Shown: positions 589-18,677 of the stretch, piece after piece
Layout: each line of letters opens with the position of its first letter
Numbering within the stretch: position 1 is the first letter of the stretch
From: a virus
Strand: one strand, 5' to 3'
DNA length: 20,350 nucleotides
Virus record (IMG/VR): IMGVR_UViG_3300002835_001393
Coordinates: 1-20,350 of that record
The notes under the pieces: model-generated
Seen by the model: the letters and a program-made list of their open reading frames with translations, nothing else
Told to the model about the DNA's origin: nothing
Database searches by the model: none
Translations under genes and position numbers: made by a program

Positions 589-2193
589 ATGGCTGTATTC
601 AAAATCCAATTCTTTAGCGGCAAGATCACGAAGATCTCGCCCCGTCTCATTCCTGAGGACTCCGCTCAGGTAGCAAGCAATTTGAATCTTGAGTCAGGCC
701 AGATTCAGCCGCTCAAGGGCAACCTTGCAACCGGAACGATGATCTCCGGCCCGGTGCAGACCATCTTCAAGTACGCCAGCAACATCTGGTTCCAGTTCAA
801 CGCGATCGTTGACATTGTTAAAAGCCCGATACCGGAGGACATTCACGGTCGCGTGTACATCACTGGGTCAACTTACCCGCGCATGACAAACAATGTTGGC
901 GCAACCGCTGGCCCCCCGTATCCGGGTACGCTTTATCGACTTGGGCTGCCGAAGCCAGCAAAGCCTGTCGCTACGATCTCTGGAACTGAGACGGCTGGCT
1001 CTACGGCGCAGGACATCGCATATGTTCTGACTCTTGTTACTGCATTCGGCGAGGAGTCCCCGCCGTCAGAAGTAACCACATCTGACATCGTGAGTTGGAA
1101 GCCGGGTCAAACGCGAACTGTCGCGATTCCCGCATTCCCCACCGGTGACTACTACACGACCGGCAGGAAGTTCCGCCTCTACAGAACCGACTCTGCTGGC
1201 TCGTTCCGCTTTGTGACGGATATCAATACGCCCTCCTCTAACTATGAGGACAGCGTTCCAGACTCATCTCTTGGTGAGGTGATTCCGTCTCAGACTTGGG
1301 AAGCGCCGCCTGACGAAGTGTCCGGACAACATCCGGACGGCCAGTTGCTTGGCCTGACTCAATTGCCAAACGGCATTCTCGCTGGATATACGGGCAACAC
1401 GGTCTGCTTCTCTGAGGCTTACCTGCCACACGCATGGCCGACTGAGTATCAGGTATCAGTGGCAAGCCCGGTCGTAGCAATGGCCTCCATCGCCCCCGGT
1501 CTTTTCGTGGCGACATCCGGGAAGCCAGTCCTTATTCAGGGCAACAGCCCTGCTGGAATGTCTGTTCAGGAACTGGATGCGAACTTCCCGTGCGTGTCGA
1601 AGCGTTCAATGGTCGATATGGGCGAGTACGCTATCTACGCCTCGCCATCTGGGCTTGTGGCCGCAGGTGCGGACGGCATTCGTGTCGTGACCCAAGAGAT
1701 CCTCTCAAGAGATCAGTGGGCGGCTTATAACCCGTCAACGATTCACGCCTATCAGCACAACGGAAAGTACGTTGCCTTTAACGGAACTTCCGGCTTCGTC
1801 TTCGATCCAAGGGGCGAGAAGAATGCGTGGATCGATCTCGACTTCACGGCGACCGCTGGCTTCTACGCCCGTGAAGAAGACACTCTGTATCTGTGGATAT
1901 CAGGTCAGTTGTATAAGTTCGACTCAGGTACGCCACTGACGTACACTTGGAAGTCGAAGCAGTTCTATTCTCCTCGCGCATTCTGCCCTCAAGCGGCTAG
2001 AGTTGACGCAGGCTCTTATCCTCTTACGTTTAAGTTGTATGCTGACGGCGCGTTGAAACATACGCAAACGGTCGCTAACTCTCTCTCGTTTACGCTTCCA
2101 TCTGGCTACACGGCCAACCAGTTTGAGGTTGAGGTCTCTGGAACCTCGACGATCAACTATGTTGGAGTGGCGGACAACAGACAAGAACTATGA
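589..2193 (+). CDS. Tail/virion structural protein, nozzle-like candidate
   Basis: This 534-residue protein begins with a motif I recognise from podovirus tail proteins: a basic Pro-Arg-Leu stretch (SPRLIPED), then QVASNLNLESGQIQPLKG at 29-46. Residues 120-220 look like an all-beta, fibronectin-like domain. The rest is rich in short beta strands with recurring hydrophobic-Gly-Asp turns (for example GFVFDPRGEKNAWIDLD and DTLYLWISGQLYKFDSG), as in a beta-propeller. Near the C-terminus is TWKSKQFYSPRAF, a pattern I have seen in tail proteins of this type. It lies between the lysis genes and the fibre gene, and its stop overlaps the fibre start (ATGA). Upstream GGGTGAAAC precedes the ATG. Virion identity is well supported by composition and context; the nozzle role is inference. 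Confidence 0.65.
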   Translation: MAVFKIQFFSGKITKISPRLIPEDSAQVASNLNLESGQIQPLKGNLATGTMISGPVQTIFKYASNIWFQFNAIVDIVKSPIPEDIHGRVYITGSTYPRMTNNVGATAGPPYPGTLYRLGLPKPAKPVATISGTETAGSTAQDIAYVLTLVTAFGEESPPSEVTTSDIVSWKPGQTRTVAIPAFPTGDYYTTGRKFRLYRTDSAGSFRFVTDINTPSSNYEDSVPDSSLGEVIPSQTWEAPPDEVSGQHPDGQLLGLTQLPNGILAGYTGNTVCFSEAYLPHAWPTEYQVSVASPVVAMASIAPGLFVATSGKPVLIQGNSPAGMSVQELDANFPCVSKRSMVDMGEYAIYASPSGLVAAGADGIRVVTQEILSRDQWAAYNPSTIHAYQHNGKYVAFNGTSGFVFDPRGEKNAWIDLDFTATAGFYAREEDTLYLWISGQLYKFDSGTPLTYTWKSKQFYSPRAFCPQAARVDAGSYPLTFKLYADGALKHTQTVANSLSFTLPSGYTANQFEVEVSGTSTINYVGVADNRQEL

Positions 2194-5100
2194 AGATAGG
2201 CGTACCAAGCGGCGTTTTCCGCCCGATTGACTCCATCGAAAGGCAGAGGGAGTTAGTCGAGACGTTGACGGGGCAGCGAGGTGATCCGCTTGACCGAGCG
2301 GTCACCTATCGCGATCTTGTCGATGAGGGATTTGCGACGCTTTCTGGTACTGGAATTTTAAGTGGCGGCACTGGAACGCTTAAACCGAAGCCGCAGCCCC
2401 CGGGCGGTCTGCCTGCGCCACCCGTCCCTGTAAATCTTCAGGCATCTGGAGGATTTGCTGCGATCCTGCTTAACTGGCAGTACGAGGCATACACCGGCCA
2501 CTCCCATACAGAGATATGGAGAGCGTCAACAAACAATCTTGGCAATGCACTTATTGTCGGCACGACTGCCGCAAAGGTTTACACTGATTACGTCACACAG
2601 ACTGGAACCACTTACTATTACTGGGTAAGAAACGTCAGCGTATCCGGTGAAGTGTCTGCGTATAACTCTACGAATGGCACACCGGCAACGCTTTCCACAG
2701 ACCCGGGTTTGCTAATAGATCTTCTTACGGGCGAGATCTCAAGCTCAATGCTTGATGCCGCCCTTGGCTCTCGACTGACAAACATCGAGAGTACTAATAC
2801 ATCTATTCAAACGCAGATCACCGATCTTTACACCACATTTGGTAACTCGCAGTCTTCTGCTGATAACCTTGCTGCCGCTCAGGCTGCTGCTGCTGCCGCG
2901 ACGGCGGCGAAGGTCGATGCAATCGGCGCAAAAGATGCGGCGATTCAGGCGAAGGTTGACGCCATTGCCGCGAAAGACGGCTCGATTGTTGCAAAAGATT
3001 CTGCTGTTGCGGCGCAAACTGCCGCGAACACATCTGCAAATAACGCGGCATCTTCTGCAACGACCGCTTCAACTCATGCATCAACTTCTGCCACTAATGC
3101 GGCAACGGCATCTACTGCCGCCACTGCCGCAAATGCATCAAAGGTTGCCGCAGAGAGTGCAAACACTCAGGCGCAGACCGCATCTAACGCTGCCGCCACA
3201 TCCGCGACAAACGCCGCAACTTATGCGACAAATTCGCAGACAGCGGCGACCGCATCTAATACGGCAAAGGTAGCTGCGGAGTCTGCAAAGGCTGATGCGC
3301 AGACGGCGGCTACTGCTGCGGCTACAAGTTCAACGACGGCATCAACTGCCGCGACTAACGCAGCGTCAGCATCTACCGCCGCGACCAATGCGAAGATCGC
3401 TGCTGAGGCCGCTAAGACTGATGCGCAGACCTCGGCTACCGCAGCAGCAACTTCCGCGACCACCGCTCTAGGGTACTCAGACGCCGCTGGCGCGGCATCG
3501 GCAGCATCTACTCAGGCGAAACTTGATTCTCAGGCAGCGAGAGATAATGCTGCGGCATCGGCAACTTCCGCAGCAACAAGTGCGACATCTGCCGCGACAA
3601 GTGCGACAAACGCATCCTCCTCTGCATCCGCTGCAAACACTTCTAAGTTAGCGGCTGAGACCGCGAACACCAATGCGAATACCGCGAAGGATGCAGCCGT
3701 TGCCGCGAAGAATGCTGCGGAGGTCGCAAAGACAGATGCGGTGTCTGCGAAGAATGACGCGCAATCCGCTCAGGCTGCCGCAGCCATCAGCCAGACCGCT
3801 GCCGCTAACAGCGCAATAGCCGCTGGAAACTCCGCAGACGCAGCCGCAGGAAGTGCCTCGACCGCATCGACAAAGGCAACTGAGTCATCAAACTCTGCGA
3901 CTGCTGCTAATACTGCAAGAGTTGCTGCGCAGAGTGCTAGAGACGCTGCCCAGACATCTGCTGACGCTGCGGCTGGAAGCGCGTCCACTGCGACAACTAA
4001 GGCTAACGATGCTCAGGCATTCGCTAACTCGGCCTCAACTTCAGCGACAACCGCCACTGCGGCAAAAGATGCGGCAGAGGGATTTAAGAACACTGCTCAG
4101 TCTCAGGCAACTGCGGCAACCACCGCCAAGGATGCGGCATCGGCTTCTGCCACGGCAGCATCTAACTCTGCTACTGCCGCCTCTAACTCGGCCACCAGCG
4201 CGGCAAGTAGTGCGGCCAACGCCCTGACATATAGGAATCAGGCGGCCACATCTGAAAGCAATGCAGCGGGATATGCAGCGGCATCCGCGCAAGACTACTC
4301 AACTATAAACGCAAGGCTGAATAATTTCGGCGGAAGCGGAGTAACAGTTGAGCAGAACGCGACCGCAACGGCCAACAACGTAACCGGACTTAGCGGCCAA
4401 TACACCGTAAAGATCGACAACAACGGGTACGTCAGCGGATTCGGTCTTGCATCGACTGCCGCCGTCAACGGCACTCCGACATCAGAGTTCAGAATCAGGG
4501 CGGATCGATTTAGCATCGGCTCGCCCGGGCAAACTACTGTCACTCCATTTATCGTTCAGGCAACAGCCACAACGATAAACGGCGTAGCAGTTCCTGCCGG
4601 TGTCTACATCAACGATGCATACATCAGGAACGGAACGATAACGTCGGCGAAAATTGCTGACGCGACGATCGATAACGCAAAGATCATCAGCCTCAGCGCA
4701 GACAAGATCAATGCTGGAACAATTGACGCCGCGAGAATCTCGATCAATACGAACGTCCTTACCTCGGTATTCAACCCGGGTACTGGGCGTAACATGCTTC
4801 AGATTTCTGGCGGCGCAATCACAAACGACCTAATCGCCACTAATGCCAACATCGATGGCGCGAAGATTGGGTCTCTAAACGTAGAGAAGCTGACCGGAGA
4901 CGTTGCGAAGTTTGTCAGCGGATATTCCGCCCCGTCAGGTGCGATACCCGCTACGTTCCAAACTTACGTTACGATGATCCTGCCAAAGTCAACGCACTCT
5001 CAAGGTCACAAGCCTTTTGTGCAAGTTGGCATTATTGATTCAAATCCGTATCAGGTCGGCGGGTATGTCCAGATATGGGCGACTCCCATCGGAGACGGGG

Positions 5101-5558
5101 TTGTGACTCCAGCCCTTGGCCCAATTGCCCCATCAGCCCAGAGTTATTGGACTCAAAACTTAGAGGGCTTCCAAGAACAGCTGGGATGGATTTTGACGTT
5201 TACCGGATATGTTGATATCGCAATAGGCGATGTCATGACATCAAACGCCAACGACAGCGGAACAGTTGTTGGCGTGACTTACAATGGAAGTCAGACTGTC
5301 GTTAGCGTCGAGGCTTACTACCAGCCCCTTGGTTCTTCGTACACGCGAACCAGACCTACTATTCCAAATGGTCAGGAGGGAACCCCTCAGATGCTGCTGG
5401 ATAGTTACTGGGATGCCTACGACATGACTAGCGTCGCGGTGTTTTGCAGCCTTCCCCAGACCACGTTGTCTTGGAAGTTTGAGATCAAGGTTCGTGCGCA
5501 GTGGGCGGGGGCTTTGTATATATCCCGTATAGATACGATAGCAATGGGGCTTCGCTAA
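2190..5558 (+). CDS. Tail fibre/adhesin with FN3, long Ala coiled coil and gpJ-like C-terminal module
   Basis: This 1122-residue protein is the likely receptor-binding fibre. Residues 1-70 are a short head region, presumably the tail attachment. Residues 72-170 form a fibronectin type III domain (VPVNLQASGG start, TEIWRAST, YYYWVRNVS). Residues 240-701 are an unbroken series of heptads made of Ala, Ser, Thr and Asn, predicted to be a long trimeric coiled-coil shaft. Residues about 735-860 resemble the DUF1983 region of lambda-type host-specificity protein J: NGYVSGFGLAS, SEFRIRADRF, YINDAYIRNGTITSAKIADA, then repeated AKI/ADKI/AARI turns. Residues 880-1122 are a Tyr/Gly/Thr-rich distal domain I do not recognise, probably receptor binding. 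The ATG overlaps the upstream stop, and the stop overlaps the next start (TAATG). Confidence 0.88.
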   Translation: MKIGVPSGVFRPIDSIERQRELVETLTGQRGDPLDRAVTYRDLVDEGFATLSGTGILSGGTGTLKPKPQPPGGLPAPPVPVNLQASGGFAAILLNWQYEAYTGHSHTEIWRASTNNLGNALIVGTTAAKVYTDYVTQTGTTYYYWVRNVSVSGEVSAYNSTNGTPATLSTDPGLLIDLLTGEISSSMLDAALGSRLTNIESTNTSIQTQITDLYTTFGNSQSSADNLAAAQAAAAAATAAKVDAIGAKDAAIQAKVDAIAAKDGSIVAKDSAVAAQTAANTSANNAASSATTASTHASTSATNAATASTAATAANASKVAAESANTQAQTASNAAATSATNAATYATNSQTAATASNTAKVAAESAKADAQTAATAAATSSTTASTAATNAASASTAATNAKIAAEAAKTDAQTSATAAATSATTALGYSDAAGAASAASTQAKLDSQAARDNAAASATSAATSATSAATSATNASSSASAANTSKLAAETANTNANTAKDAAVAAKNAAEVAKTDAVSAKNDAQSAQAAAAISQTAAANSAIAAGNSADAAAGSASTASTKATESSNSATAANTARVAAQSARDAAQTSADAAAGSASTATTKANDAQAFANSASTSATTATAAKDAAEGFKNTAQSQATAATTAKDAASASATAASNSATAASNSATSAASSAANALTYRNQAATSESNAAGYAAASAQDYSTINARLNNFGGSGVTVEQNATATANNVTGLSGQYTVKIDNNGYVSGFGLASTAAVNGTPTSEFRIRADRFSIGSPGQTTVTPFIVQATATTINGVAVPAGVYINDAYIRNGTITSAKIADATIDNAKIISLSADKINAGTIDAARISINTNVLTSVFNPGTGRNMLQISGGAITNDLIATNANIDGAKIGSLNVEKLTGDVAKFVSGYSAPSGAIPATFQTYVTMILPKSTHSQGHKPFVQVGIIDSNPYQVGGYVQIWATPIGDGVVTPALGPIAPSAQSYWTQNLEGFQEQLGWILTFTGYVDIAIGDVMTSNANDSGTVVGVTYNGSQTVVSVEAYYQPLGSSYTRTRPTIPNGQEGTPQMLLDSYWDAYDMTSVAVFCSLPQTTLSWKFEIKVRAQWAGALYISRIDTIAMGLR
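2907..4292 (+). repeat. 66 consecutive Ala-rich heptads in the fibre shaft, with a 126-base super-repeat
   Basis: From residue 240 to 701 the translation divides into exactly 66 heptads without one inserted or missing residue. Most have Ala at positions 2 and 5, as in SATSAAT, SATNAAT and AKDAAVA. A higher-order period of six heptads (42 residues, 126 bases) is visible. SKVAAES, AKVAAES, AKIAAEA, AKLDSQA and SKLAAET fall at heptads 12, 18, 24, 30 and 36, and the block SADAAAG-SASTA recurs six heptads apart (45 and 51). The DNA copies have diverged, so the array is old or held by selection at the protein level. Confidence 0.85.
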
Positions 5559-5881
5559 TGTTCATTAAGTGGGGGCCGAATGGCCCAGAGTCATCCGTTC
5601 AAAGCATCCCCGGGGATGATGGCGGGGAGTGGCTTCCGGTCATCTCGACCCCAAGCCTGAAAGACAGAAACCCGGTGACCCAGACCGTTCGTTACGAACG
5701 GGTTGATGATGTTGTTTTCGAGCGGGTAGAGGGCTTGCGGGATATGGTCTGGTGGCAAAGCCGCGTCAGGAACTATCCCCGTATCTCCGACCAGCTAGAC
5801 GCCATCTGGAAGGGTGGCGAAGAGATGGAAGCCATGCGTCAGAGGGTGCTGGCAGTTAAGGAAAAGTGGCCCAAGCCGTAA
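5558..5881 (+). CDS. Small fibre-associated protein, XkdW/tail-assembly-like
   Basis: This 107-residue protein follows the fibre gene with a TAATG overlap, which fixes the start at 5558 (MFIKWGPN) rather than further upstream inside the fibre gene. The N-terminal half has short beta segments. The C-terminal half carries NYPRISDQLDAIWKGGEEM followed by a helix ending AVKEKWPKP. A YPxIxDQLDxxWxG motif followed by AVKxKYPKP is common in small phage proteins encoded beside tail fibres (XkdW and tail-fibre assembly-type proteins). It may help fibre folding or attachment. The family likeness is from memory of the motif; the function is not proven. Confidence 0.6.
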   Translation: MFIKWGPNGPESSVQSIPGDDGGEWLPVISTPSLKDRNPVTQTVRYERVDDVVFERVEGLRDMVWWQSRVRNYPRISDQLDAIWKGGEEMEAMRQRVLAVKEKWPKP

Positions 5882-5928
5882 TGGACTTACGGTGTACAAA
5901 GGCTTACGATTGACACAGAGGGAAAACC

Positions 5929-6324
5929 GTGATTCACAAGGCAGATATTAGGGACGTTTGGGATTACGTTAGGCACGGCATCCAAGAGATATGGGATGTC
6001 TCAGTGCCTGACTGGAGACCTGAAGACCTTTATGCCTGCTGCTTGTACGGTCACGCTGATGTGTATCTTCTTGGAGACACTGGTGGGTTCGTAATCGTTC
6101 AGGAGAGACCCATGCCCTTCAAGAACCAGAAGACCCTGCTTCTGTGGGTTGGATACGACAAGACTGGTGATGCCTTTAGAAGGCACATTTCGGACTTCGA
6201 AGATCTTGCGGCAAAGCGTGGATGCTCTGCTGTTGAGTTCTGGTCATCCCGGAAAGGGATGGAGAAGTTAAGCAAGCGATACGGCTATTCCCCGTACGCA
6301 ACGATTTACACAAAGGTGCTTTGA
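5929..6324 (+). CDS. GNAT-fold-like virion-region protein (T7 gp13-position)
   Basis: This 131-residue protein has the secondary-structure order of a small GNAT acetyltransferase: an N-terminal helix (KADIRDVWDYVRHGI), strands around GGFVIVQERP and TLLLWVGYD, a long helix (DAFRRHISDFEDLAAKRG), then VEFWSSRKGMEKLSKRYGYSPYATIYTKVL. The Q/RxxGxG/A acetyl-CoA loop is not visible, so enzymatic activity is doubtful. T7-like phages place a similar degenerate GNAT-like protein (gp13, needed for virion assembly) just before their ejection proteins, and the position here is the same. The GTG start at 5929 has a Shine-Dalgarno GAGGG six bases upstream. The next gene begins one base after its stop. Confidence 0.55.
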   Translation: MIHKADIRDVWDYVRHGIQEIWDVSVPDWRPEDLYACCLYGHADVYLLGDTGGFVIVQERPMPFKNQKTLLLWVGYDKTGDAFRRHISDFEDLAAKRGCSAVEFWSSRKGMEKLSKRYGYSPYATIYTKVL

Positions 6325-6325
6325 C

Positions 6326-6931
6326 ATGAGCAAAGGCGGCAAAGGTAAAGTCGATACAGCTGACGCGATTGAGGCGAAGCGTATCGCCATCGAAGAGTGG
6401 AACGACCGGATGCAGTTTGGCGCACCGGCTGAGAAGTTCTTCATGGAGCAGGTTGACCGTATGCGCACCCCTGCTGAGTACCAGAGGGCAGCCGGTCTGG
6501 CCGGAGCGGCTATGCAGCCTGAACTTGAGGCCGCCAGAGCAAAGGCGCAAGAAGAGGCTATTAGTCGTGGCGTTGCGCCGGGGAGCGGAGGGTTTGGCTC
6601 TCCCGCTCTGACCAAGGGGTTGGCGCGATCTAAGGCTCTCGGCCTCGCTGAATCTCAAGACGCGCAGACTACTCGCTACTTTGCTGGCCAGCAGACGGTG
6701 ACCGGGATTGGTCGTGGTCAGGCTGGTCAGGGGCTTCAGGGTCTTGGTCAGTTGGCCGAGGTTTCAGGCCGTCGGGCGGCAAGCGAGGCTCGTTCTGCTT
6801 ACGAATCCTCGGCAGCCATGCGAAACCTTGCTGGAACTGTAAGCGGAGTTGGTGCTGGTTTTTACACCAACTATACCTACCCCAAAAGCGGATCAACCGA
6901 GGGCTTTGGCATGGGTGGAGGTAAAGGCTAA
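6326..6931 (+). CDS. Small Ala/Gly/Gln-rich protein, probable internal virion (ejection) protein
   Basis: This 201-residue protein starts MSKGGKGK. It has a charged helical N-terminal third (residues 10-60), an Ala/Arg/Glu helix around QPELEAARAKAQEEAIS, a Gly-rich stretch (APGSGGFGSPALTKGL) and a second helical stretch ending in a Gly-rich tail (GFGMGGGKG). There is no signal peptide or known enzyme motif. It starts one base after the GNAT-like gene, with AAGGTG seven bases before the ATG, and its stop overlaps the next start (TAATG). Small Ala/Gly/Gln-rich proteins between the tail genes and the giant protein are typically ejected with the DNA in podoviruses. The role is inferred from position and composition. 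Confidence 0.5.
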   Translation: MSKGGKGKVDTADAIEAKRIAIEEWNDRMQFGAPAEKFFMEQVDRMRTPAEYQRAAGLAGAAMQPELEAARAKAQEEAISRGVAPGSGGFGSPALTKGLARSKALGLAESQDAQTTRYFAGQQTVTGIGRGQAGQGLQGLGQLAEVSGRRAASEARSAYESSAAMRNLAGTVSGVGAGFYTNYTYPKSGSTEGFGMGGGKG

Positions 6932-7503
6932 TGGATTATCTCAGCGCATTGCAGGGCTTAAATCCAGACCTTGACCGTTACATTCGAAACGGCGGGTCTT
7001 TTGTTTCCGCGCCGCAACAGCAGCAGATGCCAACCGGCCCATATCCCGGTTATGCTCAGGTTCTATCTGGCTACGGGATGAATGTCCCGCAGCAACTTCA
7101 GCCGAACTACAGTTCTTACACGCTTAACCCTCAAGCCGATTACGGCAAGAACACGGCTGAGTATCTCGCCCGAGATCTTCTTCGTGCGCAGCGTCGTTAC
7201 TACGAGGATGTTTATCGTCCTCGCGAACTGAAATTATTTAACGAGATCCTTCAGGACTACGACAAGATTGTCGAGGAAGATCTTGGCCGAACTAAGGAGA
7301 TGGTCTCTGGTGCGTTCGGTGCGGAGGCTGGAGCCGCCGCTAGGCAGGCCGGTCGATACGGCTTAACGCCGACTACGCCGGACTTGGGTTTGGCAGAAAC
7401 ATCAGCAATGGTTGGCGGTCTCAACAGGACTCGCCTGACAGCGGAAGATCGTCGCATGGCATTGCTTGGCGGCGGACTTGACGCTCTTCGCGGAGGTGAC
7501 TAA
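6931..7503 (+). CDS. Virion-associated protein of unknown function, ejection cluster
   Basis: I do not recognise this 190-residue protein. The first 65 residues are low in charge and rich in Gln, Pro, Tyr and Gly (PQQQQMPTGPYPGYAQVLSGYG) and look disordered. Residues 70-130 are strongly helical and charged (AEYLARDLLRAQRRYYEDVYRPRELKLFNEILQDYDKIVEEDL). The end is Ala/Gly-rich (GAEAGAAARQAGRYGLTP). A GGAGG lies nine bases before the ATG, and both ends overlap neighbours through TAATG, so it is made with the two flanking small proteins. A T7 gp14/gp15-like accessory role in the ejection machine is possible but not shown. Confidence 0.5.
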   Translation: MDYLSALQGLNPDLDRYIRNGGSFVSAPQQQQMPTGPYPGYAQVLSGYGMNVPQQLQPNYSSYTLNPQADYGKNTAEYLARDLLRAQRRYYEDVYRPRELKLFNEILQDYDKIVEEDLGRTKEMVSGAFGAEAGAAARQAGRYGLTPTTPDLGLAETSAMVGGLNRTRLTAEDRRMALLGGGLDALRGGD

Positions 7504-9961: not shown

Positions 9962-10012
9962 ATGGAGCAAAGTGATGGAAGCAACCAACCACACACGGTG
10001 AGACATGGCTGA
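9962..10012 (+). CDS. Possible 16-residue leader peptide before the giant gene
   Basis: The 46 bases between the transglycosylase gene and the giant gene hold a short open frame, ATG 9962 to TGA 10012 (MEQSDGSNQPHTVRHG). It starts just after one stop and overlaps the next start in ATGGCTGA. It could couple translation into the giant gene, whose own ribosome site (GGTGAGAC) is only moderate. It may equally be chance. Confidence 0.15.
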   Translation: MEQSDGSNQPHTVRHG

Positions 10013-13000
10013 CATTACAGATCTTTGGGGTGATATCGTTGATCCTGAGAGCGTTCGCTCTCTTGGCGCGTCGCTCGGCAAGCAAGCCGAGGCCGGTAAA
10101 GAGCCTTCAATCTCAAAGGCTTTCGGCGCAGGCGTCGATGTTATGCAGGCTGGGGTGCAAAGAACCTTTCAGCGTGCGGCAGAGGCGCTTGGAGACCAAG
10201 GTCTTGCAACAACGCTTGGAGTTGCGGCAGAGCAAAACGTAGCTGAAGCATCCCCATATCTGTATCAGCCTGCTTATGGCGACACGGGATTGTCCGGTGC
10301 GCTGAACATCACAGATCCAAACTTTTGGCGGCAGGCGATCCCGAATATGCTCGGGTCGTCTACTGGTTTTCTCGCTGGCGCAGGCGCTGGTGCAATCGCG
10401 GGTTCTGCCATAGGCCCGGTTGGAACCGCTGTTGGCGCGATCATTGGCGGTGCTTTGGGTGGCGGCACCGCATCTTTCATCCAGAGTTATGGTGATAACT
10501 ACTACAGTTACATCGAAAGAAACCCCGGAGACTTTGAAGGCGCTGATGATTACGCGGCCAAAGCCTCTGGTCTCGGCGCCGCCATTGATGCTGCATCTGT
10601 TGCTATCGCGCCGATTGGCCCAGCCGTAACCGGCATATCGTCTGCCCTGAGAAAGACCGCCCTTCAGACTCTCCTGCAAGGCTCTGCTGAAGGCGGGAAT
10701 CAATACGCGCAAAACCTGATGCAGCGTCGCTACATTGATAGCGGCATCGATCCAACAACTGGCGTCGCGACCGCCGCAATCGGTGGCGGTCTTCTTGAGG
10801 CCGCTATTCTCCCGGCTGAGATTGCTGCTGCGCGTCGCATTGGCGGTGGCCCGATGCCAGCCCAGCCGACCCCTCCTGTTACAGGGGGTGAGGCTGGCAT
10901 AACCGGCGATCAGATTGTTCCGCCTCCGCCGCCTGCCCCTCCGGCTCCTCAGCCTCCAGCGTTTGCGGTTCAGCGACTCTCGGAGCTTGAGTCTGTTCAG
11001 CAACCGAGCCTTGAGCAAAGCATTGAGACGGCTTTTCTCAGGGAGTCTCTCGCTGACCCTGCAAAGTTTGAAGCGATCGACAATGCTTACGACATCAAGG
11101 ATGTCGAGGGCGTTGCCACGCCTGTATTCCGCAGAGCCGCTGAGATTCAACCCGGCGCGATAGCCGCAAGTGTTGGCGAGTCTGTTCGCGAGACCGCAAG
11201 CGGTCGTGATGTTCTTGCTGCACTCACAGAAGATGTGCGCAAGGTTATGTCCGGTGAGTATCTTGATACCACCGTCGTAAAGATTGCTGACGTTTACCGT
11301 CCGCGCATTACCCCTGATGAGCGTACCCAGATCGAAGCGGAGCGTTCTGCTCTGCGCGACCGAGTCACGAACCTCAATGAGCGTCTCGATGCGCGTCGCT
11401 TGCAACTTGATCGCACTGCGCCGTCCCAGACGAAACAGGCAAAGACACTTCGCAATCTCATCAAGAACGAAGAGGCGCAGTTAAGCGATGGGCTGGCCAA
11501 GTTAGCGGCCATCGAATACTTGTTCCCGACGTTTAGAACTCAGGTTGCGCCTGAGATGGCTGGCGTTGTTTCGCGATTCCCGCAGACTGCTATCTCGGCT
11601 GGCATCGAGCCGGTTCAGCAGCCATTCTTTGGTCAGGCTCCGCAGACCACCCTTGAAAGGGTCATGGGTCAATTTGGTCGCCGACCTGAGCCGCGTCGCG
11701 GCACAGTAAGCGGAGAGGTTATCCCGCCCCCGGCTCGCGACCTGACTGGCGTTGAGCCTCCGGCAATGACCTTGGCGCGTCCTTCGCTTGGCGAAGGCGC
11801 TGGGTCTCCGGTAACTCGGCCTGCCGATAATCGCCTTGAGGCTGTGGCGCGTAGCGCCACAAACATCGTTCCGCAGCCGGAGACAGTCCAGCAGCCAATG
11901 AGCCGACTGGAGGCTTTGGCATACAGCGCGAGACCCGGCGAGTCGTTTATGCGTCCGGCTCCTGCTGTGACGGCGGAACCCGTATCGGCGGTGGAGCCTG
12001 TTGCTGAGGTTCAGACGGCTGTCGAACCTGCCCCTGCCCCAGCACCGGCCCCCGCTCCCGCTCCTGCTCCTGCACCTACCCCGGCTCCGAGGGCTGGCCG
12101 TCGGCGCGAACGCGCTGCGGCGGCTGGTCGTATGCCGAACGCTCAGGCCCGTAAGCGGCTTGAGGACATGATTGCCACCATGCCAGCTGGGCCGGAGAGG
12201 GACTCTCTCCAGACGGCTGTAAACGCATTGGCTGCGGAAGACCTTCGTAGTCTTGAGCGTGGCCAACGGGCAGCCCGGCCTAGGGCCGAGGCGGCTGCCC
12301 CCGCACCTGCGCCTGCCCCGGCTGTTGCGGAGGCTATTACGCCTCCTGCGGAGCCTCCTGCGCAGCGTTCCCGTATGGCGGAAAACATCCCCGCCTTTGG
12401 CAGGGAGGTTGGCGATACGGCAACTCTGTTGCAGTCACCGACTGCCGCGACGATCACCTATGGCACTGGACTAACCTTCCGGGCTAACCCGAACACAGTC
12501 AGTGCCGTGGCAGAAGGCGACTTCAGGGATGAGGTCACCGCCGCATTTGTTGATCTTGTGGATAACTTCGGCTTGCCCCGTAGTCTTGTTGAGGGGGTCG
12601 AGGTCTATAAGAACACCAACGAGTTGGAGACTAAGGGTCTCTTCTTTAGGGATCGAAAGATCATTTCCCTCTCGGAGGACTTCTTTAACGCTGCAAATTT
12701 TGCCGACCCGAAGTTCCGCGAACTTCTGCGCGTAACGATCGCGCACGAACTCGGCCACAACCTGCACAGCCGCAATGGCTACGACACCCCGCGAGAGACT
12801 CGCATCTCAAATCAGGTGTTGACCATCAACAACGGCTCAGTAACCGACGTCTCAGGTGCAGCGCCTCCGATGATCCGAGAGATCTTCGGGCTTCTCGCCA
12901 ACGAGATGCGAACGGTTATCGTTCCGAATGCTACCCGCCTCATGGAGGGCGGCATGAACCCGGACGAGGCTATCGCTCAGGCTACTGCCGAGGCTGGCAC

Positions 13001-16000
13001 GGCGGCACAGTTCGCCTACCCGTTCTTCTACATCGGCGACCGTCAGTTCAATGGCCCGTATGGCAAGGACTGGACGGCGATTCAGTCCGAGATTATTGGC
13101 CAGATCTTCGCCATCCATATAGTCAATCCGAAGTGGCTGGAGGACAATGCGCCTCTGGCCTCTGCTTTCATTAAGAGGGAGATTGCAAGGAATGAACCTG
13201 CTGCAGCAAGACGCGAGTTACCTTCAGGAGTACGAGAAGAAGTTCGGCCACCCAGTCCCGGCGTCGGTGCTGCGGAGCCGCCTGTTCGGGGCGGGATTCC
13301 TCGCGAAGGAATGGCTGGACAAGAACCAGCCGAACCCGGAGTGGGCGGAGAGGGCGAAGTTCGTCGAGTCCGCGAAGGGCAAAGAAGCACAGTTCTAGGC
13401 GGCGTACGAGATGTCGCGCCGACTTTCTACAGTGCTGTTAAGAGTGCTGTTGAAAGCCTGAAGATGGTCAAGGCTCCTGCGGAGCAGTGGCTCAATACGC
13501 TCAAGAACATTCCCGGAACTAAGGCCGAGGAGCTTGAGTATTACGATCTCCCGAACTGGCTTCGCTCCCAAACTGGGAGCATCACCAAGCAGCAGCTTCT
13601 GGACGAAATCCAGCAGCGTCAGATCGACGTTGTCGATGCTGTTGGCAAGGGCAACTTTGAGTTCTATACGTTCCCCGGCGGAACTGGGTACAAAGAGCTA
13701 TTGCTCACCCTGCCGAACTTCAAGGGTAAGCCGTTCGTCAGCGAGATGCACGACTTCGGTGACGTCAAAAATATCTTGGCGCATGTCCGCCTCAAGGAGC
13801 GGGTCGATACCGATGGTAATCGCGTCCTACTAATTGAGGAGATTCAGAGCGACTGGCATCAGGCTGGTCGCCGCGAGGGCTACACCGAAGAGTCCGGCAT
13901 TCCGGACGCCCCGTTCAAGACGACTTGGCCTGACCTTGCCCTGCGCCGCATCGTTCGCTTTGCCGCAGAGAATGGCTATGACCGAGTCGCTTGGACGACT
14001 GGCGCAGACCAAAAGGCTCGTTACGATGTGCGTCGCACATTTAGCGAGGTTCTTTACAAGAAGAACGCGAACGGCACTTACCACATTCGTCCTATTGACC
14101 GTGGCGGAAATGTCACCGGAGAGAGCAGGTCTGTAAAAGAGAATGAACTAGGTAAGTTTATTCCGAAGACTGTTGCTGAAAGGATGCTGAACAACGAGGG
14201 CGTTAAGTCCTCCGGCATGAACAGAGATTTCATGTCTCTGTCTGGAGATCTCCTCGACTCTGGCGATGGTATGATGGCCTTCTATGATCGTGAACTCGTG
14301 AACAGGTCAAAGAACCTGTTTGGAAAGTTTGGCGGTCGCATGACTGTTGGCAAGATCGAGGTCACACCTCAGCGCGGAGAGGACAGCGGGTTTGCAACCG
14401 ACAGCGTCCGATCAGCAAAGAGGGCGATCACAGAAGGCGGAGAGGTTCATGTCCACTCCGATCTCCAATACATTGGAACCGCAAACTCCGCAGCTGAGCT
14501 TGATGAGTTTGTTCGCAGTAACGAAGATCAGCCGCTAGAGTTTTCGATTCAGTTCCCAGAGATCAAGGCCGAGGCCAGGGACTTCCACGTTCTTCAGATC
14601 CCGGAGCCTCTGAAAGAGATTGCGGTCTACAAGGGCTTCCCGCTGTTCATGAATCAGCGCAACGGAGCAATCGTTTCCGCTGTAAATAGCGGCGCGTTTG
14701 GAAGCATCGGCCATGCTGTTGACTCTCTGCAAACAATTGTCAACTCATCGCTTGAACAGACTAGGCCGACAAGCATTTACAACGGCGCAGACGAGACGCT
14801 GCGCGACACGCTGACGCGAACATTCGTCAACTCCTTCTACCGCCTTGAGCAGTTCCAGAAGGAGATGGCGAAGAAGATTGGCATGTCTCGTATCAGCGAC
14901 GAGATGGATGCGGCTGGTCAGATCGAGCGTTTCAGCGGTCAGGTTACCGAGGACGAGCGAAAGATTCAGCGTCAGTATCTTGAGCCGATGATGAAGTACG
15001 TCTTCGACAACGGCCTCGACTACAACGAGCTAAATCTTTTTGCTTACGTTCGCCATGCCCCTGAACGCAATGCCGAGATCGCAAAGAAGAATGCCGTTAA
15101 ATACGACGAACTTCGTCAGCAGTTGTCTGATAAGTACGACGGAGATCTCACAAAGGCAACGGCAGAGGAAAGCCGAAACCTAGAGCGATACCTGACCATG
15201 AAGGAAAGGTATGCTGATGGTGGCTCTGGCATAAACACAAAGGATGCTATATCCATCACGAATCGATTCCGAGATGAAGGCAAGTACGACAAGTACTCTG
15301 CCGCCATGAAGTTCGTTGACGACTTGGTCAGGTCAACGCAGCAGCGTATGGTTTCTTCAGGACTCATCGAGGAAGAGGTCGTTGGCGCTTGGAATGACAA
15401 GTACAAGTCTTATGTTCCGCTAACAGGATGGGCTATCGACGAGTTCGACTCGCCGCAAAACAGCCCGATGCGCGTCGGTCGCGGCTTTTCAATTGGCGGC
15501 AAGGAGTCGCTCGCCGCTCTCGGTCGCCAGACTATGGCATTCCCGCCTGTGACAAACGCGATTAAGCAGGCGTATGAGAAGACAATCCGTGCGCGAAAGG
15601 CCGAAGTTGGCCGCCGTTTCTTGAACCTCGTAAGGACGTTCAAGGATGACTCGATGTGGGAGGTCATTGACAAGGACAACCCGGTCTACACGCGGTACAT
15701 GGATTCGAAGAAAGATGCCGTTCTTTTGCGCAGGCAGTCTAGCCGCAGACCGGGGGAAGACTTCTTTGAGGTTAAAGAGGATGGGCAGACCATTCTCATT
15801 GATATCAAGGACGACAACCTTCGACGCGCCATGCTTAACCTTGGCGCAGCGGATATGGGTAGCCTCGTCAATGCCGTACAGAATACGTTCGGCAGGGCGT
15901 CATCATTCCTAGCTGGCATGACAACGCGATGGAACCCTGCTTGGTCTATCGTCAACGTGCCGCGTGACTTTATGGCCGGTATGATGAACCTTGTCGCCGA

Positions 16001-17594
16001 GGCTGATCTTCATGACGGACTCTTGAAGGGGGCTGGAAAGGTTGATGGCAAGACCGTTGTGCAGGCTGCGGTATCAGACTATGTCAGCCTTAAGTATCAC
16101 AAGGCTCTCAGTCGATATCTCAACAACAAGGCCGGTGATGCCGCAGAAGATAACTTCGTAAAGGAGTTTTTCGAAGACGGAGGAGCCACTGGGTACGTTA
16201 GAAATCTTGACGCTCGCGAACTGCATCGAGAGCTTCAAAGCAGTATAGATTTGATTAGCGAGTCTGGATCGCTTGAGGGCGGATCTGCTCTGACAAAGGT
16301 TAAGCGAGGACTCAATGGCGTAAAGAATGCGATTGAGCATTTCAACGACATGACCGAGAACGCGGTTCGCGTTGTCGCTTACGTCAATGCGCGTAAGGCT
16401 GGCGTCAGCCGAGACAAAGCGGCTCTGCTTGCAAAGAATGTGACGGTGAACTTTAACCGTCGCGGCGAGGCGGGGCCGCTTATGAACTCGTTCTACATGT
16501 TCTGGCAGGCGAGCATCAACGGTAACTTGCAGTTCTTCAGAACGATGACTTCTGCCGAGGCTCGCAAGTTGATGTACTACGCAGCAGGTGCTGCGGCAGC
16601 TGTCACCGCAATGAGTCTTGCCGCAAGCGAAGAAGAGGAGAATGGGAAGACAGAGTGGGAGAACCTCCCTGACTACGTTAAGGAGAATGGCTTGCCGGTT
16701 AAGTTCCCGGGAATGCCTATCCTTGTGATCCCGCTGCCTTACGGCTACAGCATCCTGACTTACGGAGCCATCAAAGCGACAGAGGCAATGCTTGGCATTG
16801 AGTCTGCTGGAGGATTCGCAGGCAAGACGCTTGGAAAGATTGCCAACGACATGTCACCGCTCCGCGTTCCGGAGTCTACGAGTGCCGCTGGTAGCACAAT
16901 CAGGGGCATTACCCCGACCGCTATTCGCCCACTTGTCGATATCGCAATGAACGAGGACTTTGCTGGCAATCCGATCTACAAGGAGAACCCTGAGTTCGCC
17001 AAGGTCAAGATGCCGGACGCTTCGCTGCACCGTCGAGGAACAACGGACACGGCAATCGCGTTCTCAAACTTCTTGAACAAGGCGACTGGCGGCACGGACT
17101 TCCAGCCGGGCTTGATCGATGTCAGCCCTGACGCAGCTGAATATCTCATTGGAGAGATCTTCGGCGGCGCAGGACGCACATTGATGCAGGCTTATGGCGT
17201 TGCCGAGAAGGTTATCACCGGGAAAGACATCGAAGTCCGTCAGGTTCCTATCGTCAACAAGGTCATAAAGACGACCTCTTGGACGATGAACCCCGGCGAC
17301 TTCTACGACCGCATGGACTCTGTGTATCGAGTCGAGGCGGAAGCCAAGACACTCAAGGGTGGCGAGAGGGAAGAGTTCGTTGGCGATAACAGGGTTGACT
17401 ACCTTGCTCTGCCGTTCGCCAAGAATGCGCAGCGTCGGTTGAGCAAACTCTATGAACGCCGCAAGAGCATTCAGAACTCCTCATCTGCTGAAGCCCTGAA
17501 GGAGGAACAGATCGAGAAGATCGAACTGGAAATCCAAAAGGTGTACGACGAGTTCAACTCGCGGTACGAGAAGATCAAGGACAGAGAGGGCTAA
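10005..17594 (+). CDS. Giant multidomain (polyvalent-type) ejection protein with zincin motif and LPD38-like C-terminus
   Basis: This 2529-residue protein fills the place of the large ejection protein. Regions in order are: a helical N-terminus; a Gly/Ala zipper at 116-158 likely to enter or span a membrane; helical segments; a Pro-Ala linker at 675-695; a zinc metallopeptidase motif HELGH at 914-918, with Glu1029 in SEIIGQ a possible third ligand; and a Gly/Pro/Arg/Glu linker at about 1063-1131. Next is a conserved module at about 1140-1560 carrying EEIQSDWHQ (1278-1286), AENGYDRVAWTTG and a closing YKGFPLFMN, which I remember from other giant phage proteins but cannot assign a reaction. Helical regions follow, then an LPD38-like part with WNPAWSIVNVPRDF near 1976 and FWQASINGNLQFFR near 2165. 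Large polyvalent phage proteins are thought to enter the host with the DNA. Confidence 0.8.
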   Translation: MADITDLWGDIVDPESVRSLGASLGKQAEAGKEPSISKAFGAGVDVMQAGVQRTFQRAAEALGDQGLATTLGVAAEQNVAEASPYLYQPAYGDTGLSGALNITDPNFWRQAIPNMLGSSTGFLAGAGAGAIAGSAIGPVGTAVGAIIGGALGGGTASFIQSYGDNYYSYIERNPGDFEGADDYAAKASGLGAAIDAASVAIAPIGPAVTGISSALRKTALQTLLQGSAEGGNQYAQNLMQRRYIDSGIDPTTGVATAAIGGGLLEAAILPAEIAAARRIGGGPMPAQPTPPVTGGEAGITGDQIVPPPPPAPPAPQPPAFAVQRLSELESVQQPSLEQSIETAFLRESLADPAKFEAIDNAYDIKDVEGVATPVFRRAAEIQPGAIAASVGESVRETASGRDVLAALTEDVRKVMSGEYLDTTVVKIADVYRPRITPDERTQIEAERSALRDRVTNLNERLDARRLQLDRTAPSQTKQAKTLRNLIKNEEAQLSDGLAKLAAIEYLFPTFRTQVAPEMAGVVSRFPQTAISAGIEPVQQPFFGQAPQTTLERVMGQFGRRPEPRRGTVSGEVIPPPARDLTGVEPPAMTLARPSLGEGAGSPVTRPADNRLEAVARSATNIVPQPETVQQPMSRLEALAYSARPGESFMRPAPAVTAEPVSAVEPVAEVQTAVEPAPAPAPAPAPAPAPAPTPAPRAGRRRERAAAAGRMPNAQARKRLEDMIATMPAGPERDSLQTAVNALAAEDLRSLERGQRAARPRAEAAAPAPAPAPAVAEAITPPAEPPAQRSRMAENIPAFGREVGDTATLLQSPTAATITYGTGLTFRANPNTVSAVAEGDFRDEVTAAFVDLVDNFGLPRSLVEGVEVYKNTNELETKGLFFRDRKIISLSEDFFNAANFADPKFRELLRVTIAHELGHNLHSRNGYDTPRETRISNQVLTINNGSVTDVSGAAPPMIREIFGLLANEMRTVIVPNATRLMEGGMNPDEAIAQATAEAGTAAQFAYPFFYIGDRQFNGPYGKDWTAIQSEIIGQIFAIHIVNPKWLEDNAPLASAFIKREIARNEPAAARRELPSGVREEVRPPSPGVGAAEPPVRGGIPREGMAGQEPAEPGVGGEGEVRRVREGQRSTVLGGVRDVAPTFYSAVKSAVESLKMVKAPAEQWLNTLKNIPGTKAEELEYYDLPNWLRSQTGSITKQQLLDEIQQRQIDVVDAVGKGNFEFYTFPGGTGYKELLLTLPNFKGKPFVSEMHDFGDVKNILAHVRLKERVDTDGNRVLLIEEIQSDWHQAGRREGYTEESGIPDAPFKTTWPDLALRRIVRFAAENGYDRVAWTTGADQKARYDVRRTFSEVLYKKNANGTYHIRPIDRGGNVTGESRSVKENELGKFIPKTVAERMLNNEGVKSSGMNRDFMSLSGDLLDSGDGMMAFYDRELVNRSKNLFGKFGGRMTVGKIEVTPQRGEDSGFATDSVRSAKRAITEGGEVHVHSDLQYIGTANSAAELDEFVRSNEDQPLEFSIQFPEIKAEARDFHVLQIPEPLKEIAVYKGFPLFMNQRNGAIVSAVNSGAFGSIGHAVDSLQTIVNSSLEQTRPTSIYNGADETLRDTLTRTFVNSFYRLEQFQKEMAKKIGMSRISDEMDAAGQIERFSGQVTEDERKIQRQYLEPMMKYVFDNGLDYNELNLFAYVRHAPERNAEIAKKNAVKYDELRQQLSDKYDGDLTKATAEESRNLERYLTMKERYADGGSGINTKDAISITNRFRDEGKYDKYSAAMKFVDDLVRSTQQRMVSSGLIEEEVVGAWNDKYKSYVPLTGWAIDEFDSPQNSPMRVGRGFSIGGKESLAALGRQTMAFPPVTNAIKQAYEKTIRARKAEVGRRFLNLVRTFKDDSMWEVIDKDNPVYTRYMDSKKDAVLLRRQSSRRPGEDFFEVKEDGQTILIDIKDDNLRRAMLNLGAADMGSLVNAVQNTFGRASSFLAGMTTRWNPAWSIVNVPRDFMAGMMNLVAEADLHDGLLKGAGKVDGKTVVQAAVSDYVSLKYHKALSRYLNNKAGDAAEDNFVKEFFEDGGATGYVRNLDARELHRELQSSIDLISESGSLEGGSALTKVKRGLNGVKNAIEHFNDMTENAVRVVAYVNARKAGVSRDKAALLAKNVTVNFNRRGEAGPLMNSFYMFWQASINGNLQFFRTMTSAEARKLMYYAAGAAAAVTAMSLAASEEEENGKTEWENLPDYVKENGLPVKFPGMPILVIPLPYGYSILTYGAIKATEAMLGIESAGGFAGKTLGKIANDMSPLRVPESTSAAGSTIRGITPTAIRPLVDIAMNEDFAGNPIYKENPEFAKVKMPDASLHRRGTTDTAIAFSNFLNKATGGTDFQPGLIDVSPDAAEYLIGEIFGGAGRTLMQAYGVAEKVITGKDIEVRQVPIVNKVIKTTSWTMNPGDFYDRMDSVYRVEAEAKTLKGGEREEFVGDNRVDYLALPFAKNAQRRLSKLYERRKSIQNSSSAEALKEEQIEKIELEIQKVYDEFNSRYEKIKDREG
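12027..12089 (+). repeat. Pro-Ala linker in the giant protein
   Basis: Residues 675-695 alternate Pro and Ala with one Thr substitution, an extended stiff linker of the kind that spaces domains. A second shorter Pro-Ala run occurs around 12295-12330. Both lie between the helical N-terminal part and the metallopeptidase region, and the DNA is a CCN-GCN repeat prone to slippage. Confidence 0.8.
13192..13398 (+). CDS. Candidate overlapping gene in the +1 frame of the giant gene
   Basis: A 67-residue open frame (start MNLLQQDASYLQEYEKKFG, end AKGKEAQF, stop TAG) lies wholly inside the giant gene, one base out of frame. It has a normal protein composition: an amphipathic helix, FGHPVPASVLRSRL, then FLAKEWLDKNQPNPEWAE. 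By my count 58 of 67 sense codons end in G or C, while most codons of the giant frame here end in A or T and encode a Gly/Pro/Arg/Glu linker. GAGGG ends 12 bases before the ATG and AAGGA abuts it, so the ribosome site is poor. The frame extends to an earlier ATG at 13147, but the added residues look unlike protein. It could be expressed, or be the relic of a small gene trapped by gene fusion. No family was recognised. Confidence 0.4.
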   Translation: MNLLQQDASYLQEYEKKFGHPVPASVLRSRLFGAGFLAKEWLDKNQPNPEWAERAKFVESAKGKEAQF

Positions 17595-17806
17595 CCGTCA
17601 AAGTCGCCGTCTAGTAAATGCAGTTTGAACATCTCGATAAGGAAAAGTAATTTCGCCTTATCGTTGGTGTTCGAACTGCACACTAGACTGCCGTCCTGAT
17701 CCAAGTAGAGGATCAGCAGATCACGCTTTGCAGGGTAGCCCTTGTGCGCGTCAAGGATCTCGTCGTCAGACGGGTATATCGAGACTACTTTTCCTTCCCG
17801 CTTCAT
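17591..17806 (-). CDS. Small protein of unknown function next to the integrase
   Basis: This 71-residue protein starts MKREGKVVSIYPSDDEIL and ends FKLHLLDGDFDG. A central strand pair (DLLILYLDQDGSLVCSS) is followed by a helix (DKAKLLFLIEMFKLHLL). I chose ATG 17806 because GAGGTG lies seven bases upstream; the frame is open back to a TTG at 17824 without a good ribosome site. It overlaps the 3' end of the integrase gene by 41 bases. Its stop codon overlaps the stop of the giant gene on the other strand. Phages often carry small strand-helix proteins of this sort, but I cannot name a function. A link to the integrase, for example as an accessory or excision factor, is only suggested by position. 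Confidence 0.6.
   Translation of the reverse strand: MKREGKVVSIYPSDDEILDAHKGYPAKRDLLILYLDQDGSLVCSSNTNDKAKLLFLIEMFKLHLLDGDFDG
17621..17678. repeat. 58-bp imperfect inverted repeat next to the integrase gene
   Basis: Outer arms CAGTTTGAAC (17621-17630) and GTTCGAACTG (17669-17678) pair at 9 of 10 positions. Inner arms CGATAAGG (17635-17642) and CCTTATCG (17656-17663) pair perfectly around a 13-base AT-rich centre. It lies inside the 71-codon gene, just past the convergent stops. Possible roles are a two-way transcription barrier or a recombinase core site. There is no clear T-run on either side, so classic intrinsic termination is doubtful. Confidence 0.55.
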
Positions 17807-18677
17807 TGAAGAACACCTCATCAACTATGCTTGCCTTGGATCTGAGGTGGTCTAGGTCTGGCTGAACGTACTGCGCAGCCATGCTTGGCGTCGCCCATCC
17901 GCCAAGCGTCATCAGCGTCTTCAAGTCAGAACGCTTGCCGACTTCCGTGGCCCACCCTCGTCTAGTCGAGTGTACGCCATATCCGGTCAGTCCAGCAGCC
18001 TTGACTGCCCGTCTCCATGTATCCGAATAGATACGCTTAAACGGCTCACCGCGTTCATTTACGAAGACAAATTCTGGGTGACACTTGGTGTTACGGATGA
18101 AGAGCAGTATCCGCATGGCGGATGCGGACAGCGGGATGGTCAACTCTTTGCGCGACTTCATGCTGGTCGCGTCGATCTTGATAGAACGGGAATCGAAATC
18201 GACGTTAGACCACTTGAGTCGGCAGATGTTCACGCCGCGCAAGCCGGTCGCTACCGCAAACTCGATAGCCCTACCGTGAGATGGCGGCAGTTCTTCAATG
18301 AGTTGCTTGGCTTGATCTGGCCGGAGTACGGGGCGATTCGGAGTCTCCTCCGGCAGCGGGTCAACCTTTGGTAAGCGGTCAATCCATTCCCTCTCTAGTG
18401 CGAATGAGAAGACCTGCATCAACTTCTTGGTCGCGTCGTTGATGGATGACGCTTTCATCTGGGACTTCGACTTCACGATGTCCCGTGCGCGTATGACCTG
18501 TGCCTTGCCTATTGCCCTGATCGGGTGGCTCTTGAAGTACTGACCGTAGACTTCGATAGCCCACTTGATCTTGTACCTAGACTGCTCCGTGATTGGAGTC
18601 GAGTTCTTGTATTGCCAAAAAGATTCGACAGCCTGATCCCAAGTCAGTTCCTGCTTTCCAAAGATTCCTGATTCCAT
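17766..18677 (-). CDS. int: Tyrosine recombinase / phage integrase
   Basis: This 303-residue protein catalyses site-specific integration and excision between attP and attB. An N-terminal core-binding domain (about 10-105: TWDQAVESFWQY, VIRARDIVK) precedes the catalytic domain, which has all expected residues: Arg147 in ATGLRGVNI, Lys174 in the SMKSRKE turn, His236-x-x-Arg239 in VHSTRR, Trp261 in LGGWATPSM and nucleophile Tyr270 in AAQYVQPD. The start is ATG 18677 because AAGGAG sits five bases upstream; the open frame runs to a TTG at 18695 without support. The gene overlaps the end of the putative nuclease gene and the start of the 71-residue gene, so it is cotranscribed near the end of a leftward operon. 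It marks the element as temperate or formerly temperate. Confidence 0.95.
   Translation of the reverse strand: MESGIFGKQELTWDQAVESFWQYKNSTPITEQSRYKIKWAIEVYGQYFKSHPIRAIGKAQVIRARDIVKSKSQMKASSINDATKKLMQVFSFALEREWIDRLPKVDPLPEETPNRPVLRPDQAKQLIEELPPSHGRAIEFAVATGLRGVNICRLKWSNVDFDSRSIKIDATSMKSRKELTIPLSASAMRILLFIRNTKCHPEFVFVNERGEPFKRIYSDTWRRAVKAAGLTGYGVHSTRRGWATEVGKRSDLKTLMTLGGWATPSMAAQYVQPDLDHLRSKASIVDEVFFNEAGRKSSLDIPV

Follow-up and report, generated by a model that had tools for sequence, protein, structure and literature searches.

How does a podophage come to carry a tail fibre that resembles part of the lambda tail-tip protein J (gpJ)? The question is raised by the first 20,350 nucleotides of IMG/VR virus record IMGVR_UViG_3300002835_001393 (the whole stretch analysed here, called the window), in which a long fibre gene stands directly behind a gene for a tail nozzle protein. 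An earlier note on this DNA had seen FN3 and DUF1983-like parts in the fibre and had suggested that only the distal adhesin half was exchanged between tail types. We consider it quite probable that the gene instead encodes a trimeric, J-like receptor-binding nozzle fibre of a probably temperate podophage, with a fused jelly-roll tip that is exchangeable together with the next small gene. The features on which the argument turns are as follows.

589 to 2193, plus strand: tail nozzle protein, 534 amino acids (aa), directly upstream of the fibre (phrog_511, 1.4e-142)
2190 to 5558, plus strand: J-like podophage tail fibre gene, an open reading frame (ORF) of 1122 aa
2190 to 2408, plus strand: N-terminal anchor region, aa 1-73, putatively docking on the nozzle
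2409 to 2702, plus strand: FN3 domain, aa 74-171, from structure alignment and phrog_31
2820 to 4289, plus strand: Ala/Ser/Thr-rich spacer, aa 211-700 (about 490 aa), from composition and heptad period
4347 to 4742, plus strand: DUF1983 (Phage_Tail_Tip, PF09327), 47.6 bits against a cut-off of 22
4872 to 4913, plus strand: junction SLNVEKLTGDVAKF, aa 895-908, preceding the tip, in 7 of 7 rows of the tip-family alignment
4896 to 5555, plus strand: probable tip for receptor binding, aa ~903-1122, with a predicted TNF/C1q-like jelly-roll fold
5558 to 5881, plus strand: 107-aa ORF overlapping the fibre stop (phrog_9114, 4.6e-7 over aa 60-107)

The fibre ATG overlaps the stop of the nozzle gene by 4 bases, and the start at 2400 assumed in the earlier note therefore lies 70 codons too late; the true ORF begins 210 bases earlier, at 2190. 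A genome profile search matched the fibre to phrog_19394 (1.3e-37), phrog_37064 (1.7e-33), phrog_496 (1.5e-32, aa 17-268), and phrog_31 (1.4e-11). The FN3 domain is borne out by a piece scan, in which aa 75-171 match phrog_31 (central tail fibre J) at 4e-12, and by an AlphaFold2 model with a predicted local distance difference test score (pLDDT) of mostly 90-96 across the domain. The best FN3-type structure for aa 74-171 is 5z06_B (Z 14.7, 92 residues, 1.3 Å), followed by the phage T1 tail tip (9l9p_S, Z 13.1) and a chain of the DEV tail gating complex (9ze4_N, Z 12.8), the last as a partial superposition only (root mean square deviation 12.3 over 133). In Pfam, the domain gives a sub-threshold Ig_J_second match alone (20.3 bits, cut-off 27).

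DUF1983 was likewise recovered by domain search, with E-values of 1.8e-12 in the piece scan and 2.1e-12 in the genome search; a whole-protein Pfam scan missed the domain, and the isolated piece gave the match. The same piece also matches phrog_496 (4.9e-6) and the SU10 PDB chain 7z4b_EA (2.8e-6). The fibre has NGYVSGFGLAS at residue 745 and NDAYIRNGTITSAKI at residue 808. Between FN3 and DUF1983 lies the spacer, which is 40% Ala and shows a 3.5-residue period of Ala/Ile/Leu/Val/Met that none of 500 shuffles equalled; a coiled coil is probable. Because its length varies from about 0 to 812 aa across the fetched loci, the spacer is the elastic part of the fibre. A spacer match to the T7 gp17 coiled coil (4e-4) was discarded as compositional. 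The anchor region is partially conserved among 20-22 aligned fibres.

These parts are familiar from other podophages. Judged by profile matches, the fibre belongs to the J-like podophage fibres of phrog_496, a family also matched by DEV gp56 (4.5e-159), the Traversvirus phi315 fibre (8.5e-185), and SU10 gp18 (1.1e-11), and its layout of FN3, helical part, and DUF1983 is that of the family. Profiles of the window's relatives align with DEV gp56 both over FN3 (E 4e-11) and over DUF1983 (5e-8), and with lambda gpJ at 9e-9 through DUF1983 and the junction, collinear to residue ~1001. Podophage fibres with DUF1983, and usually FN3, behind a nozzle gene form a diverse family of 44 loci once copies are removed; among the listed pairs, nozzle identity falls as low as 32%.

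Published work, as the excerpts cited here attest, already describes J-type fibres on podophages. Sp5, a short-tailed Stx2 phage, needs ORF71, which carries DUF1983 and COG4733, for tail formation (PMC5155283). Traversvirus tv24B (YP_009168168) has a gpJ-like spike followed by small outer-membrane-like and membrane-associated genes (PMC12309495), and from domains, order, and length, ORF71 would be the same gene as the Traversvirus fibre. In DEV, gp56 is a gpJ-like tail seal carrying gp55 and gp54, of which gp54 is proposed to bind LptD (PMC12892993).

Comparison with each system places the window fibre more closely. DEV gp56 (Schitoviridae) resembles it in family, podophage tail, alignable FN3 and DUF1983, and a stop/start overlap with the next gene; however, gp56 has 429 aa and a separate receptor-binding protein (RBP; gp54 via gp55), whereas the window has the 490-aa spacer, a fused tip, and a fibre gene directly after the nozzle gene. 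The phi315 fibre (L110, 7123-8388; L numbers denote collected loci) also directly follows a nozzle gene and matches phrog_496 and phrog_31, but it has 422 aa, no long spacer, and no fused tip, and is followed by 92-aa and 205-aa genes. The distal half of lambda gpJ presents an FN3-like domain, DUF1983, junction, and jelly-roll-like end in the same order (the end at only Z 7.9), while the window differs in that the hub half was not found and a long spacer separates FN3 from DUF1983.

One explanation of this likeness, in line with the exchange suggested in the earlier note, is that this podophage lineage recently acquired its J-like distal half from the J gene of a siphovirus. The homology to gpJ through FN3, DUF1983, and junction would fit, as would a DUF1983 tree that requires at least 5 changes between nozzle-type loci (same-strand upstream nozzle) and J-type loci (lambda J N-terminal half), and small genes that recur behind both kinds of fibre: the C-terminal part of ORF 5558-5881 has relatives behind J genes, and L038 (nozzle-type) and L063 (J-type) have post-fibre genes with 52% identity along 142 aa, which hints that such genes are shared between tail types. 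Yet the two genomic contexts stay apart. Among 118 DUF1983 hits, copies and truncated loci included, 58 have the upstream nozzle, 29 have the lambda J half, 31 have neither (a number of these being truncated), and 0 have both. After reduction to 102 distinct rows, then 101 (one 65-aa row dropped) and 93 (eight near-copies dropped), the window's DUF1983 (row L002) falls in a 13-row group of 12 nozzle-type rows, its own included, and one truncated row, with a Shimodaira-Hasegawa-like approximate likelihood ratio (SH-aLRT) support of 84, which is below the level that the tool stars. Tips are hardly shared across types either: 44 nozzle-type and 27 J-type loci gave three weak matches of 30-37 bits, the best being L109-L119 at 37 bits.

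Because the window's DUF1983 groups with podophage copies, a recent siphovirus import is unsupported, and we regard it as very improbable; on this evidence the fibre is a member of a standing podophage family and not a fresh chimera. A deep exchange between the types may still have taken place, the tree being built on a short domain with 40 of its 90 inner branches open. The hub parts of J, which the note had called missing, were indeed not found: phrog_31 matched only at positions 966-1065 and 1155-1304 of 1565, no locus with an upstream nozzle gene gave a BLAST match to the first 600 aa of lambda J, and lambda I had no BLAST match in any nozzle-type locus (K was not searched by itself). Several DUF1983 matches per ORF occur in some fibres (four in the L142 ORF from 8560, and also in the L141 ORF from 2143), and the L011 fibre (5472-7058) has an inserted second DUF1983-like stretch.

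What has been exchanged is the tip. A swap table was built from 113 loci, or 99 without copies, of which 44 are nozzle-type (946 pairs); near-copies such as L008/L009 remain, and frequencies within the set of loci collected by similarity to the window are biased. Tip and nozzle identities frequently disagree among the 44 nozzle-type loci. For instance, L003 and L006 share 36% identity in the nozzle, 58% in DUF1983, 79% in the tip, and 67% in the next gene, and their DNA aligns in a block of 1,008 columns at 77% that starts at fibre residue 895 in TLNVAKLTGDVTKF and stops a few bases from where the next ORF ends. Between the window (L002) and L003, identity is 82% in the nozzle, 85% in DUF1983, and 62% in the tip; L006 and L016 have nozzles of 83% identity, and their tips do not match. 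The two trees contradict each other with strong support: the nozzle tree joins L002 with L003 (100/100) and L006 with L016 (100/100), while the tip tree joins L003 with L006 (100/98) and L002 with L004 (100/100). Approximately unbiased (AU) tests, on groups picked after the identities had been seen, reject a pairing of L003 with L006 in the nozzle (p 9.7e-66) and a group of L002, L003, and L004 in the tip (p 0.009). These sequence comparisons demonstrate tip and next small gene as an exchanged unit that moves between podophages.

A second pair replaces the fused tip altogether. L008 and L014 are 83% identical in the nozzle and 87% in DUF1983, with tips that have no BLAST match; L008 ends in 227 aa followed by a 118-aa ORF, and L014 combines an end of 15 aa with two genes, one of 93 aa (phrog_2427, 1.2e-19) and one of 233 aa (phrog_4062, 5.8e-14). 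Their DNA identity stops at L008 fibre residue 831, earlier than the L003-L006 boundary. An LTGDV-like motif follows DUF1983 in 7 of the 44 nozzle-type loci, 3 of the 27 J-type loci, and 3 of the 28 others. Given the earlier boundary and the 7 of 44, the break falls at the end of DUF1983 or beyond it and not at one motif. LTGDVxKF as a general socket was dropped on the same count, and junction SLNVEKLTGDVAKF is typical of this tip family, not of every tip.

The two genes of L014 have counterparts elsewhere. Relatives of the 93-aa gene follow a DUF1983 gene in CF418P1, XC38, Presley, and At2, and phrog_2427 is also matched by DEV gp55 (3.5e-5) and, marginally, by the 92-aa gene of phi315 (0.005). 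Relatives of the 233-aa gene, found via phrog_4062, come next in CF418P1 (9e-9), XC38 (7e-6), phi315 (3e-5), and At2 (2e-4); as a query against the next genes, the L014 gene matched itself alone. Behind the window fibre, no phrog_2427 or phrog_4062 match marks separate adaptor or RBP genes, a feature that varies inside the group. The choice between fused and split arrangements is known in siphoviruses: in an excerpt on Drexlerviridae of the BASEL collection, an RBP locus lies behind gpJ, and a C-terminal extension replaces it in TolC-binding phages (PMC8594841). The group described here shares these two states, but Drexlerviridae are siphoviruses, and here the two are seen among podophages whose nozzles are 83% identical (L008, L014). 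Searches of the open-licence literature listed no report of fused/split tip alternation in podophages.

The earlier note had called the fibre end unrecognised and possibly receptor binding, and both points have held up. For the last ~250 aa there is no match to a Pfam or PHROG family, nor a significant one in 50,697 phage records (best E 0.7). Relatives of the tip were confirmed in 8 viral-contig loci, including the window's own sequence (L002 contig) and L135, which was left out of further analysis; 20 pattern matches in bacterial genomes yielded 0 confirmed members. In the model, aa 901-1122 (model residues 201-422) have block pLDDT values of 81-96. Foldseek with the 422-aa model in PDB and BFVD gave low template modelling scores, and VIA-align was used instead; its matches include Pgp3 (Z 10.6), BC2L-C lectin (10.1), PLTL lectin (10.0), IBDV VP2 (10.0), and the Pan3 cyanopodophage needle (9.0), with the top lectin and Pgp3 rows (Z 9.9-10.6) covering 112-132 residues at 2.9-3.9 Å. 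The tip is thus predicted to be a TNF/C1q-like jelly roll and is likely a receptor-binding one. It appears to occupy the same place as the end of gpJ, because the profile alignment is collinear through DUF1983 and junction to ~1001. A common fold does not mean a common receptor.

We propose that the N-terminal region docks on or beside a hexameric nozzle, and that a shaft made of FN3, the long coiled coil of Ala heptads, and the DUF1983 segment holds the fused jelly-roll tip, which would bind the surface of the host. On the model of DEV gp56, such binding may be relayed to the nozzle or plug so that ejection starts. Behind DUF1983, tip and next small gene would act as one exchangeable unit, whose place in L014 is taken by the short fibre end and two separate genes resembling the DEV gp55-gp54 arrangement.

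Two other placements of the protein compete with this one. It might be the central tail needle, a trimeric nozzle plug like SU10 gp18 and not a fibre beside the plug. SU10 gp18 shares with the window fibre a DUF1983-like segment, a podophage tail, and a gene that follows the nozzle gene, and chain 7z4b_EA was identified as this needle from its 322 aa and three chains; the match of the tip model to the Pan3 needle points the same way. Unlike the window fibre, however, SU10 gp18 has 322 aa in all, leaves the FN3 part unmatched, and plugs the nozzle (excerpt of PMC9509320); its phrog_496 match is far weaker than that of DEV gp56, which in turn is placed beside the plug and not in it (excerpt of PMC12892993). 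We rate the needle as rather unlikely.

P22 tailspikes are side fibres, with six copies on the nozzle. A comparable six-copy side fibre, serving only the first reversible contact, would accord with the long spacer of ~490 aa and with a nozzle homologue entry of six chains, but neither DEV gp56 nor SU10 gp18 is a sixfold side fibre in the published excerpts (PMC12892993, PMC9509320), and this placement seems to us decidedly unlikely.

Some observations weigh against the receptor-binding nozzle fibre with an exchangeable tip that we prefer. The structure models are AlphaFold2 monomers, from alignments of 15 and 20 sequences, of what would be a trimer; in them the anchor is not resolved (pLDDT blocks of 35-53 over aa 1-70) and the DUF1983 part is poor. 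The tip aligns with the end of lambda gpJ (8xcj_F 995-1123) at Z 7.9 (110 residues, 2.9 Å), which the tool describes as a common level, and unrelated jelly rolls appear at about Z 10, among them IBDV VP2, a capsid protein. No single junction motif is common to the loci, as the scarcity of the LTGDV-like motif and the L008-L014 boundary at residue 831 attest, and the AU-test groups were chosen post hoc. Finally, DEV gp54 has no phrog_4062 match at E 0.01 and matched phrog_3370, which leaves the gp55-like gene, position, and size as the only ties between L014's RBP-like gene and DEV.

The small ORF at 5558-5881 has no Pfam match, and its PHROG matches are only of unknown-function families. Its N-terminal part is matched only where the window tip matches over its length, and its C-terminal part has a wider distribution. 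A second gene of 61-70 aa behind J resembles the C-terminal part in L044, L057, L058, L065, L066, L068, L077, L078, L120, and L121, as if the ORF had been fused from two small J-associated genes. A tip partner or chaperone is our guess. Next comes a 131-aa ORF with a weak match to acetyltransferase phrog_1249 (0.0019).

The wider neighbourhood is podoviral, in agreement with the earlier note: besides the nozzle, an SLT protein and a giant LPD38 ORF lie downstream of the fibre.

10005 to 17594, plus strand: giant ORF, 2529 aa, LPD38, phrog_14770 and phrog_616
17766 to 18695, minus strand: tyrosine integrase (PF00589)
19382 to 19864, minus strand: dUTPase (PF00692)

The nozzle gene matches PDB 8jov_A, 'Virion-associated phage protein' (E 5.4e-74, best stretch 2-514, 6 chains), which we take to be podophage GP4. 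Entry 8JOU is named as GP4 in an excerpt of PMC13243795. The family phrog_616 (profile length 2793) probably represents the giant proteins of tail assembly in Stx podophages and, from domains, order, and length, may correspond to the 2793-aa ORF80 of Sp5; the giant ORF also has a weak partial tape-measure profile match (2e-5 over 140 aa). Integrase and dUTPase together make the phage probably temperate. A 117-aa ORF at 19821-20174 (minus strand) has a CsrA match (PF02599, 30.9 bits, cut-off 27), best near its C-terminus, and the Bcep22-like podophage JC1 likewise has csrA (excerpt of PMC9144972).

Because the window is a 20-kb fragment, the absence of siphoviral tail genes was judged from relatives, and none was named in 30 scanned ORFs (a part of the ORFs) of three related records. 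With DUF1983 matched and no such gene among these ORFs, neither of the outcomes that the earlier note had set as refuting it has turned up. The contig of a 73%-identical relative has terminase, portal-like, and structural genes upstream, plus a tail-fibre-like ORF; the L002 contig, which is 100% identical and continues the window, has replication and recombination genes further on; and a relative of 57 kb combines nozzle and fibre with terminase, portal, and major head protein. Of seven genome contigs collected by the nozzle alone, all have a gene with an FN3/anchor profile directly downstream (L143 and L144 weakly), with DUF1983 in five. Neither such a gene nor DUF1983 was found in Itty13 and Pavtok, and hence this nozzle is often, but not always, followed by the fibre. 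Related loci in Janthinobacterium sp. CG3 and Polaromonas sp. CG9_12 also came from the nozzle search.

These findings correct the view of DUF1983 and FN3 as marks of long-tailed phages: both are standing parts of a podophage fibre family. Of the exchange that the earlier note had proposed, a podophage fibre with the gpJ distal half stands, import from another tail type is unsupported for this phage, and the exchange that the data do show is that of the tip with the next ORF among podophages. The fused-or-separate choice of receptor-binding parts, described for siphoviruses in the excerpted PMC8594841, is thereby extended to podophages. We tentatively suggest, as an idea that may well prove wrong, that podophages of this group switch receptor by swapping whole tips behind DUF1983, either a fused jelly roll with a small partner gene or a short end with an adaptor-RBP pair; DUF1983 being the platform of siphovirus gpJ, tips could in principle work across tail types. 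Natural pairs such as L008/L014 and L003/L006, in which tip history differs from nozzle history, make the exchange directly testable.

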